A stretch of DNA of 64,000 bases, from NCBI GenBank assembly GCA_002709295.1, contig PAQL01000003.1:18894-82893 (forward strand). Direction: 5' to 3'. Below the pieces are notes generated by a model that ran no database searches, was not told the DNA's origin, and was given only the letters and a program-made list of their open reading frames with translations. The position numbers and the translations under genes were made by a program. Positions 4,938 to 49,381 of the stretch are shown piece by piece. Numbering within the stretch: the stretch's first letter is position 1; every line of letters begins with the position of its first letter. Source of the DNA: Phycisphaerae bacterium (lineage in GTDB: Bacteria; Planctomycetota; Phycisphaerae; Phycisphaerales; SM1A02).

Positions 4938-5116
4938 CGACCTCCCGCACCCCGCCATCGCCCTCCTTGGTGTCTGGAGAGGGCATGCCAGGGGTGTTCG
5001 AGGGAGGGCGAAATCGCTCGTCAGGTGGTCCGAATACGGGGCCGGCCACGCAATTCTTGCCTTTAAGGTCCGCCATTCCATGAATTACGGGATCTCGAGG
5101 TCCCTCAGGACGTATT

Positions 5117-5312
5117 CTTGAGCAGCACATGGGCGGAGGGAACTCCGGGTCACTTGCGTGACCTGGTGCCGCCAGGATCCGGACGACGACGTTTCACGCG
5201 TCGCCGCACGGAGACGCTGGGAAATGGGGGCCCGACCCCGTCGGCTTCGGCCGACCCCAATTCGGGCACAGGGAACTCGGACGCCCCGCTCAGGCGGGGC
5301 GTCCGACTTTTT
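5117..5312 (+). ncRNA. Candidate structured RNA with intrinsic terminator
   Basis: The 500-base gap between the deiodinase-like gene and the PqiA-like gene holds a run of hairpins: CGGAG-GGAA-CTCCG (5134-5147, GNRA loop), GGTCAC-TTGC-GTGACC (5148-5163), CCTGG/CCAGG (5162-5176, competing with the previous one), CGACG/CGTCG (5187-5203), and GTCGGC-TTCG-GCCGAC (5240-5255, UUCG loop) enclosed by GCCCGA/TCGGGC (5230-5267). A strong terminator follows at 5278-5312. This could be a free small RNA or a terminating leader of the PqiA-like gene. I found no match to SRP RNA, tmRNA, RNase P RNA or common riboswitch consensus motifs. The 5' end is a guess; a weak TATTCT sits at 5113. Confidence 0.4.
5278..5312 (+). 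terminator. Strong intrinsic terminator
   Basis: A perfect 12-bp stem, CGGACGCCCCGC/GCGGGGCGTCCG, with a four-base loop is followed by ACTTTTT. It ends the structured region upstream of the PqiA-like gene. Confidence 0.85.
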
Positions 5313-5436
5313 GCCCCTCCTCGGTGTCGGCATCCGGATCTGGGTCTCCCGCGGAGTGGAAAGGCAGGTGCGGCGGGAGCCCCGAGCCCTTCTCAAAGCT
5401 GCGGTATGGATGGCCCGACGGTCGATCTAGCTGGAC

Positions 5437-6522
5437 ATGGACTCGAAGAAGACCAGGCCGCTTGCCTTCGACTACGACCAGTCCGCCATGGTGTGGGTCA
5501 TCCCTCTGATGATCCTTGCTGCCCTGACCTTCAACATCACCGCCCTCACGATGCCGTTTCTCGAGATCAAGATCGGGCTGGCCCCGGTCGAGAACTACAG
5601 CATCCCCCACACCGTCCATCTGATGTGGTTCGAGTTCAAGGTCTATCTGATCGCGGTCCTCGTGGCGGGATTCTCGCTGGTCTTTCCGTTCGTGAAGCTG
5701 CTCCTGCTGATCTGCGGCTGGTACCTGCCGCTCACCGAGCATCGTCGGGGTCGCGTGCTGTCGGTGCTGGGTGCCCTTGGGAGATGGTCCCTGCTCGATG
5801 TCTTCGTGGCTCTGGTCCTGATCGTGCTGGCTCATGACCAGGGGCGGCTGTTCGTGACCGGTGTGAAGCCCGGTCTCGCCCTCTTTCTCGCCGCGATCAT
5901 CATCGCCATGATCACCGGTGACATCATGCATCGTCTTCATGATCGGACCTCCGTCGACCAACCGGTTCCGCGCCGGGCGAAGCAGCTCTCGCCACTGATG
6001 ACCTGGGGTGTTCCGGTTCTCGCCCTCGCGGCACTGGGAACCCTCGTCGCTTCGCTGCAGGCTCCGTACCTGAAGATCACCGCCTGGTTTCTCGACCGGA
6101 CCGAATACAGCATCCTCGGCACGATCCAGGCCCTGATCGAGGAGTCGGACTTCATCTTCGGCTTCGCGGTCGCGATGTTTCTGGTGATCATGCCGAGCCT
6201 TCGTGTCCTGCTCATCGGCGGCGCCTGGTGGTGGAGGGGGGATCCCCTGAAGCTCTTCCGGATCTCCGGGGTCCTCAGGGTCGTCGAACGCTGGGCGATG
6301 CTGGATGTCTTCGCCCTCGCCATCGGGCTGTTCCTTCTCGAGGGGGGGAATCTCGTGCCGATCGAGCATCGTTCCGGGGTCTGGTTGCTGCTGGCCGCGG
6401 TGGTGTCCACGGTGGTGCTCTCCAAGGTGGCCGGATCGCTCATCCTGTGGTCCTCGACCGAGCGGCCCGCAGACGGGCAGAACGGCGGGGCCGCCCCCAT
6501 GGATGTCTCGAAACCGTCATAA
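5437..6522 (+). CDS. Paraquat-inducible protein A (PqiA)-like membrane protein
   Basis: Inner-membrane protein of 361 residues with two repeats of the PqiA domain. Each repeat has about four helices and carries the family block GRWSLLDVFVALVLI (about residues 110-125) or VERWAMLDVFALAIGLFLL (about 285-305). PqiA proteins work with MCE-domain partners in envelope lipid transport or stress defence. No pqiB or pqiC lies next to it here, so the partner is unknown. The start at ATG 5437 has no strong Shine-Dalgarno. The gene lies 125 bases downstream of the structured RNA and terminator, which may be its leader. The CxxC zinc motifs of some PqiA proteins are absent. Confidence 0.8.
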   Translation: MDSKKTRPLAFDYDQSAMVWVIPLMILAALTFNITALTMPFLEIKIGLAPVENYSIPHTVHLMWFEFKVYLIAVLVAGFSLVFPFVKLLLLICGWYLPLTEHRRGRVLSVLGALGRWSLLDVFVALVLIVLAHDQGRLFVTGVKPGLALFLAAIIIAMITGDIMHRLHDRTSVDQPVPRRAKQLSPLMTWGVPVLALAALGTLVASLQAPYLKITAWFLDRTEYSILGTIQALIEESDFIFGFAVAMFLVIMPSLRVLLIGGAWWWRGDPLKLFRISGVLRVVERWAMLDVFALAIGLFLLEGGNLVPIEHRSGVWLLLAAVVSTVVLSKVAGSLILWSSTERPADGQNGGAAPMDVSKPS

Positions 6523-6561
6523 TCACCCGTTCGCCGCCGGATGGTGTCGAACGGAGGTCCG

Positions 6562-7506
6562 ATGGAAGCCATGCATGCATTCCTTGATGAACTGATCGAC
6601 TACGCCGGTCTGTTCCCGCCCGCCCGCCTGGACATGACGCCCGCGGTCGATTCCTACGCCCGGCACCGCGGGGGGGCGCTCCATGCTGCGCTGGGCCGGT
6701 TCATCGTCCCCCTCTCCCGGATCGAGGAGTTCGAGGTCGCTGCATCGTCGTTGCTGCCGGTGGTGCCCGCGATCGAGGACGAGGCTCAGGCTCCGGAGCT
6801 CTGGGGCGTGTCGGCCCTGGTGTCGTCCGCCGAGGATCTCGATTCGGTTCGAGCGGACCTGGAGACCATCGAGGCGTTCAACGACCGGCACACCGAGGTC
6901 GGCGCCGGGGCCGCGATCATCGACACCATCGAGTTGAAGGCGGGGTCGGGTGAAGCCGTCGACGCGGTCCTCGATCTGCTCGATGACGAGCTGTACCCGT
7001 ACTTCGAACTCGATCACCGGACCGACGTCCGGGGGACCATCGCCGCCATCGCAGGTCTCGACGGCGGCGCCAAGATCCGGACCGGCGGACTCGATCCCGA
7101 GTCTCATCCGTCGGTCGACGAGGTCGCTGCCTTCATCGAGGCGTGTCGCATGGCCGGAGTGCCCTTCAAGGCCACGGCGGGGCTCCACCATCCGGTCCGT
7201 GCCCATCAGGAATCGGTCGGGGCCCGTCAGTTCGGGTTCCTCAACATCTTCCTCGGGGCGGCGATGCTCCATGCGGGACGGATCGATGGCGGGGGACTGA
7301 GGAAGCTGCTTGCGGAGGAGGATCCCTCCGCATTCGGTTGCGAAGAGGCCGGAATCTCTTGGCGCGACGTCACCATCGACGTCGAATCGCTCGCCGAGGC
7401 CCGCAGTCGCTTCGCGCATTCATACGGCTCGTGCAGTTTCGACGAGCCCACCGACGAACTTCGAGAGATGGGCTGGCCGGTTCCAGCCCTGGAGAATCGA
7501 GCATGA
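6562..7506 (+). CDS. Conserved protein of unknown function coupled to fahA
   Basis: A soluble protein of 314 residues. ATG 6562 is preferred to the track start at 6541 because GGAGG lies four bases upstream. Its stop overlaps the fahA start (ATGA), so the two are translationally coupled. The pattern of strands and helices and motifs such as GGAKIRTGG (about 165) and GVPFKATAGLHHPVR (about 200) suggest a TIM-barrel-like fold; this is inference. No maleylacetoacetate isomerase gene, which usually sits beside fahA, is visible in the window, so a role in homogentisate breakdown is a reasonable guess. Function is not established. Confidence 0.8.
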   Translation: MEAMHAFLDELIDYAGLFPPARLDMTPAVDSYARHRGGALHAALGRFIVPLSRIEEFEVAASSLLPVVPAIEDEAQAPELWGVSALVSSAEDLDSVRADLETIEAFNDRHTEVGAGAAIIDTIELKAGSGEAVDAVLDLLDDELYPYFELDHRTDVRGTIAAIAGLDGGAKIRTGGLDPESHPSVDEVAAFIEACRMAGVPFKATAGLHHPVRAHQESVGARQFGFLNIFLGAAMLHAGRIDGGGLRKLLAEEDPSAFGCEEAGISWRDVTIDVESLAEARSRFAHSYGSCSFDEPTDELREMGWPVPALENRA

Positions 7507-8792
7507 CTGAACGTCAGAAGAGCTGGGTCGATTCGGCGCAGGATCCCGAGGGCGACTTCCCGATCGACAACATCCCGTTCGGTGTCTTCGAGGCATCCTC
7601 GGGCGACGGCGGCCGGGTCGGCACCGCGATCGGAGACCGGGTGGTCGATCTGGAGGCGCTGGCCAGCGCAGGGATGCTCGACGAACTTCCCGACACGGTG
7701 AGGCGTTCACTCGCCTCCTCGACCCTGAACGATCTCGCGTCCTTCGGTCGTCCCGTGGTCGGCGGCGTCCGTGCCGCGATCAGGTCGCTGCTGGTCGAGG
7801 GCGACGACCGGCTCCGCAGCCATCCCGACCGTGACCGGATCGTCCGTCCCGCGTCCGAGGTCCGGATGCTTCTTCCCTTCGCGATCGGTGACTACACCGA
7901 CTTCTATGCGAGCGAACATCATGCCACCAACGTGGGCTCGATGTTCCGCCCCGACAATCCGCTGATGCCGAACTGGAAGCACCTGCCGGTGGGATATCAC
8001 GGCCGGGCGAGCTCGATCGTGGAAAGCGGTCGGGCCATCCGCCGCCCCTGCGGTCAGACCGTTCCTCAGGAGGGCCCGCCGCCGAGTCACGGCCCGGTCC
8101 GGCTGCTGGACTACGAGCTGGAAGTCGGCTTCTTCATCGGTGCCGGCAGCGAACTCGGGTCTCCTGTCCCCATCGCCCACGCTCTCGATCACGTCTTCGG
8201 TCTGGTGCTGGTCAACGACTGGTCGGCCCGCGACGTGCAGAAGTGGGAGTACCAGCCTCTGGGGCCGTTCAACGCGAAGAACTTCGCCACCACCATCTCC
8301 CCGTGGGTGGTCACCATGGACGCCCTCGAGCCGTTCCTCGTGCCCGGCCCCCCTCGGGCGGAGGGTGATCCGGAGAATCTGGACTACCTGCGCTGGGGCG
8401 AGGACGTCGCCGTCGATCTGGAACTCGAGGTTCTGGTGGCCTCCGAGACGATGCGGGAGCGTGGCATGGCCCCCGAACGCATCAGTCTGGGCAACTACCG
8501 GGACATGTACTGGACGATCGCCCAGATGGTGGCTCATCACACCTCGACCGGCTGCGATCTCAATCCCGGGGATCTGATGGCCTCGGGAACCGTGAGCGGG
8601 CCGGGGGAGGACAGCCGGGGATGCCTTCTCGAGCGCACCTGGCGGGGTCAGAATCCGGTTCCGCTTCCGGATGGGACCGAACGGAAGTTCCTCCAGGACG
8701 GGGACGACGTCATCATCCGTGGCTGGTGCCGCCGGAACGACATCCGCATCGGTTTCGGTGAGTGCGTGGGAAGGGTCCTGCCCGCCGGGTGA
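7503..8792 (+). CDS. fahA: Fumarylacetoacetase
   Basis: Cytosolic hydrolase that splits fumarylacetoacetate into fumarate and acetoacetate, the last step of tyrosine catabolism. The 429-residue length is normal. The true start is ATG 7503, overlapping the upstream stop; the track's 549-residue version adds antisense-like residues. The N-terminal FAH domain shows DNIPFGVF and GDYTDFYASEHHATNVGSMFRP. The catalytic domain has LDYELEVGFFIGAGSELG with metal-binding acidic residues, VLVNDWSARDVQKWEYQPLGPFNAKNFATTISPWVV, and GTVSGP. hmgA and hppD for the earlier steps lie 1 and 9 kb away on the opposite strand, so this is a dispersed pathway locus rather than one operon. Confidence 0.96.
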   Translation: MTERQKSWVDSAQDPEGDFPIDNIPFGVFEASSGDGGRVGTAIGDRVVDLEALASAGMLDELPDTVRRSLASSTLNDLASFGRPVVGGVRAAIRSLLVEGDDRLRSHPDRDRIVRPASEVRMLLPFAIGDYTDFYASEHHATNVGSMFRPDNPLMPNWKHLPVGYHGRASSIVESGRAIRRPCGQTVPQEGPPPSHGPVRLLDYELEVGFFIGAGSELGSPVPIAHALDHVFGLVLVNDWSARDVQKWEYQPLGPFNAKNFATTISPWVVTMDALEPFLVPGPPRAEGDPENLDYLRWGEDVAVDLELEVLVASETMRERGMAPERISLGNYRDMYWTIAQMVAHHTSTGCDLNPGDLMASGTVSGPGEDSRGCLLERTWRGQNPVPLPDGTERKFLQDGDDVIIRGWCRRNDIRIGFGECVGRVLPAG

Positions 8793-49297: not shown

Positions 49298-49381
49298 GCC
49301 GGAGTGGCGGAATCGGCAGACGCGACGGATTCAAAATCCGTTTCCCGCAAGGGAGTGTGGGTTCGAGTCCCACCTCCGGTA
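49298..49381 (+). tRNA. tRNA-Leu (anticodon CAA)
   Basis: A complete class II tRNA. The acceptor stem is GCCGGAG/CTCCGGT with a terminal G-U. The anticodon stem ACGGA/TCCGT encloses loop TTCAAAA with anticodon CAA at 49332-49334, reading UUG. The long variable arm (TTCCCGCAAGGGAGT) and the T-loop GGTTCGAGTCC identify a leucine tRNA. The 3' CCA is not encoded and must be added. Confidence 0.95.

Follow-up and report, generated by a model that had tools for sequence, protein, structure and literature searches.

Locus and folding of the intergenic region

The window analysed here, a stretch of 64,000 nucleotides from a Phycisphaerae contig, contains an intergenic region of 499 bases (4938-5436) between an ORF of thioredoxin-like appearance, for which no Pfam match was found, and a pqiA-like membrane-protein gene on the plus strand (5437-6522) encoding 361 aa with two PqiA domains (PF04403, E 7e-28, in two stretches). 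A strongly folding RNA composed of a core and an intrinsic terminator was located in this region at 5130-5312 (+) (z -4.0), and its length is about 183-195 nt depending on the start position. The ATG at 5437 lies 124 bases past the T run, in agreement with the roughly 125 bases given in the first-pass annotation.

The fold of 5090-5330 was 4.0 standard deviations better than dinucleotide shuffles, and 1 of 200 shuffles was as good. The minus strand of the same segment folded equally strongly, so that folding energy by itself cannot assign the RNA to a strand; the assignment was based on the T run, on the direction in which the homologues run and on the orientation relative to pqiA. The equal folding of the two strands and the readiness with which GC-rich DNA folds would suit a trivial explanation, namely a terminator of the upstream gene beside neutral GC-rich DNA folding by chance. 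Against it stand unpaired segments that are invariant and compensatory changes across seven genomes, together with conservation of the RNA where the spacer is random and the upstream genes are different. Since both covariation and conservation among homologues were found, the chance fold is effectively refuted.

One-base indels separate the homologues in the central part of the RNA (GTCAAAACC vs GTCAAACC). These indels ruled out a coding function, in line with the first-pass annotation, which found no ORF to account for the region, and the ORFs that overlap the RNA are therefore regarded as mechanical.

Conserved fold and covariation

In the conserved fold, the outer helix P1 (5132-5173) pairs GGCGG (5132-5136) with CCGCC (5169-5173), which changes in a compensatory manner to GGCAG/CUGCC, and leaves an invariant AGGGA bulge at 5137-5141. 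P1 is capped by the hairpin P1a (5145-5153/5158-5166), with compensatory changes inside each of the two genera that carry the RNA, the window's own (g1) and a related one (g34). P2 (5178-5212) is an irregular hairpin closed by UCCG (5178-5181) and CGGA (5209-5212) with an inner stem at 5187-5192/5198-5203; its sequence varies while the hairpin is kept, with compensatory changes in g34 and a different build in G002, the window's relative in g1. A purine-rich junction, GAGAnnCUGGGAAAUGGGG (5211-5229), largely invariant over the columns of the seven sequences, leads to the nearly invariant P3 (GCCCGA/UCGGGC, 5230-5267), which encloses P4 (GUCGGC-UUCG-GCCGAC, 5240-5255). In the hand alignment, most of P4 is replaced in G215, by UCGCC-UAAC-GGCGA. 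The linker ACAGGGAAC (5268-5276), found as AnAGGGAAY in all homologues, is followed by the intrinsic terminator detected by a pattern scan (5277-5312, +), with a 13-bp stem (5277-5289/5294-5306), a UCAG loop and T5 at 5308-5312. Several pairs of the terminator show compensatory changes, and the T run is present in every homologue. The invariant unpaired segments of the seven sequences are all purine-rich: the AGGGA bulge, GAGAnnCUGGGAA..GGG and AnAGGGAA, or, written as consensus, AGGGA, CUGGGAA..GGG and CAnAGGGAA.

Several hairpins had been proposed from the window alone. The UUCG hairpin proved to be P4 and is part of the conserved structure, and the strong terminator was kept in the homologues, with a stem of 13 bp rather than the 12 counted earlier. 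Although the window sequence allows the GNRA hairpin CGGAG-GGAA-CTCCG, the five homologues in g34 are unable to form it, and we have dropped it from the fold.

In a hand alignment whose arms were picked by eye, 306 of 307 pairs were standard, with both-sided changes in P1, P1a, P2, P4 and the terminator, the five helices that carry compensatory changes. Because the arms had been chosen by eye, the model structure was recounted on a MAFFT alignment (A4), in which 88% of cells were paired compared with 30-47% in slid versions. The covariation score was 0.161 vs 0.106 in shuffles and was reached by 0 of 500, in an alignment that misaligns P1a and the outer part of P2 between the two genera and so lowers the score. 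The weight of any covariation count is limited by the sample of seven related sequences in two clades; the compensatory changes bear out the covariation expected of a structured RNA. On comparative grounds, the RNA forms a well-supported, previously uncatalogued family whose fold is preserved where the letters have changed.

Homologues and distribution

A BLAST search recovered one relative from the same genus (G002), and the same RNA was present upstream of the next-closest pqiA (G035). The covariance model R1, built from the window and these two sequences, found full-length homologues in 7 of 181 family genomes (E 5e-45 to 4e-23): the window (G000) and G002 in g1, and G035, G108, G213, G215 and G217 in g34. 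With a second model built without the terminator (R2), no further member was found, either among 400 genomes from the order or among 392 from the phylum, in covariance searches that combined a loose first look with strict filters over 40 genomes and that diverged members could escape. Those of the weaker matches that were inspected (E 1e-5 to 0.8 with R1, 0.002 to 0.09 with R2) were terminator hairpins or unrelated sequence in which the motifs were absent. When 85,462 species genomes from across GTDB were scanned for the motif, the RNA was seen at seven Phycisphaerae loci, in records of Phycisphaera sp. TMED9 (two contigs), Phycisphaerae bacterium MED708 and Plancto1, Phycisphaerales bin93s and ANT-54, and Phycisphaera ERR2206776_bin.149; the other 10 of its 17 stretches had no convincing match to the covariance model. 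Viral, phage and plasmid collections gave no match.

The two contigs of TMED9 (G213) that carry the RNA-pqiA locus (L158 and L159) differ at 16 of 1500 positions downstream and 269 of 1000 upstream (ungapped), and the pair may represent a duplication or mixed strains.

No Rfam 15 family matched the region or four homologous loci at gathering score, and matches at a low threshold were centred on the terminator hairpin and mostly due to chance. A housekeeping RNA (6S, RNase P, SRP or tmRNA) was rejected on this lack of a match and on the presence of the element in only 7 of 181 family genomes. Across the entire window, only a tRNA gene at 49298-49381 (+) reached an Rfam gathering score. In our literature searches we found no work dedicated to regulatory RNAs in Phycisphaerae, and no paper on a pqiA leader or on an sRNA neighbouring pqiA. 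Of the outcomes that would have counted against the first-pass annotation, neither a lack of covariation nor an Rfam hit was seen. The description of the element as an unassigned structured RNA is supported by the homologue search, the covariation, the Rfam scan and the linkage to pqiA described below: the RNA before pqiA is real, structured, conserved and narrowly distributed.

Promoter-like block and conservation profile

A block of the form GGAAC-N15..18-CGTA, written GGAAC-N16/17-CGTA for the homologues, was exact in six of the seven (0-3 of 2000 shuffles each) and sits at -31 to -37 from the core. The window carries a one-mismatch version at 5090-5118 (+), with GGATC at 5090-5094, 16 bases upstream of the CGTA, and CGTATTCT at 5111-5118. 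We take GGAAC-N16/17-CGTA to have the shape of an ECF sigma promoter. A TATnCT or TAATCT, also conserved, could be a housekeeping -10, and a simple sigma-70 scan found no sigma-70 consensus. Any sigma class for this promoter-like block is putative, being read from the motifs.

Within g34, the four closest members share 93-98% identity in the core, against 75% between G035 and G215, and the pairwise identity is 88-100% for the terminator and 65-93% for the 60 bases upstream of the RNA. The pqiA coding sequence is 72-93% identical in this genus (79-93% for the four closest members), so the RNA and terminator are conserved as well as the coding sequence, or better. The spacer between the terminator and pqiA is 47-65% identical, compared with about 51% (maximum 56%) in shuffles. 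The spacer alignment contained no conserved promoter-like block; the one stretch it did show, close to the start codon, resembles a ribosome-binding site.

Linkage to pqiA

The RNA lies directly before pqiA on the same strand in all seven genomes, at a distance of 71-118 nt plus the terminator in the homologues. The set of genomes with the RNA, 7 of 181 in the family, coincides exactly with the set that has the closest pqiA orthologues (E below 1e-90). On the upstream side the neighbouring gene varies, being Trx-like in the window, Exo_endo_phos in g34 and another gene in G002. Downstream, the RNA is followed in both the window and g34 by pqiA, a gene for 321 aa and fumarylacetoacetase, in that order; g34 alone has one extra gene, placed after pqiA and before the 321-aa gene. 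In G002 the RNA and pqiA are likewise present, followed by the first part of the 321-aa gene where the contig ends. In G001, which belongs to the window's genus, the 321-aa gene and fumarylacetoacetase are retained and a different gene replaces both the RNA and pqiA; a single deletion would also explain this joint loss.

The gene inserted in g34 (L156 4602-6536 and equivalents) encodes a protein of 610-645 aa with a weak dockerin-like match. The 321-aa protein of the window (6541-7506, +) has no Pfam match and its gene stands directly before fumarylacetoacetase (7488-8792), as in all g1 and g34 genomes where both are readable. It is possibly an unrecognised partner in the fumarylacetoacetase pathway.

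Leader of pqiA or autonomous sRNA

We propose, with a probability of about 0.48, that the RNA is a terminated leader of pqiA, which limits read-through into the gene and releases an RNA of about 185 nt. The conserved promoter-like block would drive this structured RNA as the 5' leader of pqiA, and a stop at the strong terminator would release the short RNA. P1/P1a with its AGGGA bulge, P2 and P3/P4 probably present the invariant purine-rich segments to a protein or ligand, and the frequency with which polymerase passes the terminator would set pqiA expression. Three findings favor this reading: the RNA is linked to pqiA, both are absent from the locus in G001, and no conserved promoter was found in the spacer. 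The comparison establishes the linkage and the absence of a conserved spacer promoter, as it does the conserved structure and the terminator; from these we infer a conditional or leaky terminator, dependence of pqiA on read-through and a recognition site in the purine segments. Like terminating leaders and riboswitches, the element combines a structured 5' region, invariant unpaired segments and an intrinsic terminator with one specific gene on the same strand. Unlike them, it matches no Rfam family and shows no conserved antiterminator: when the 3' arm of the terminator was omitted, the 5' arm paired strongly upstream only in the window and not in the other six. Two further points count against a leader. 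The spacer is long enough to hold an unconserved promoter of its own, and linkage in only two related genera can be maintained by common descent.

Two alternative pairings were considered and set aside. A strand exchange between P1 and the terminator, whose arms are alike (GGCG in g1, GGCA in g34), could have served as an antiterminator, but when truncated RNAs were folded it was supported in the window only. In a second pairing (P0), the 5' leader would pair with the CUGGG junction; this is plausible in g34 but not in G002, and it hinges on where the transcript starts. Protein-dependent antitermination is possible.

Nearly the same probability attaches to a stand-alone sRNA that acts in trans. 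In that case the element would be a gene of roughly 185 nt, equipped with a promoter and a terminator of its own, that merely lies beside pqiA and whose product acts by base-pairing or by protein binding. Such a gene is favored by the missing antiterminator and by the compact arrangement of promoter block, RNA and terminator, which are preserved as a single unit, with a core at 93-98% against 79-93% for pqiA in the four closest g34 members and a spacer near random. On the other hand, the RNA was never found away from pqiA, either in the genomes searched or in the scan of 85,462 species, and the two are missing together in G001. The compact unit, with a promoter possibly of ECF type, resembles stress-regulated intergenic sRNAs such as the enterobacterial sigma-E sRNAs. 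It differs from them in lacking an Rfam match, in its constant link to one gene and in having purine-rich unpaired segments, where sigma-E sRNAs use pyrimidine-rich segments to block ribosome-binding sites. Of the earlier suggestion of an sRNA or a terminating leader, either part fits the data, which do not choose between them.

The purine-rich segments also raised the question of CsrA. A decoy RNA that, in the manner of CsrB and RsmY, captures the translation regulator CsrA through its conserved ANGGA segments and so frees the targets of CsrA is quite improbable here. Each RNA carries 2-3 ANGGA sites, where shuffles would be expected to have 0.5-0.8 (P 0.01-0.08). In all seven, the AGGGA bulge has a probability of 0.93-0.98 of being unpaired, and every genome with the RNA encodes CsrA. 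However, CsrA was found in 20 of 20 family genomes tested and the RNA in only 7 of 181, and CsrA adjoins FliW, the usual protein antagonist of CsrA in flagellated bacteria. Only two ANGGA sites are universal, and they lie in the bulge and the linker, not in hairpin loops. More generally, the GGA sites of the RNA occupy bulge, junction and linker, away from the hairpin loops expected of CsrA decoys, and the conserved stretch extends well beyond GGA. The element is thus like CsrB, RsmY and RsmZ in having several GGA motifs, some unpaired, and a host with CsrA, and unlike them in its few sites outside repeated hairpin loops, its lack of an above-threshold Rfam match and a host that also has FliW. 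Two CsrA paralogues were present in almost every family genome examined, and the one with the better score was encoded close to FliW (L081, L082, L203).

A metabolite- or protein-sensing regulator of pqiA of an undescribed class, with the invariant GGGAA segments forming the sensor, is rather unlikely. If the RNA controls pqiA, it would be an RNA sensor linked to an envelope-maintenance protein. With its defined fold, its partner gene and the short list of members, its function is directly testable.
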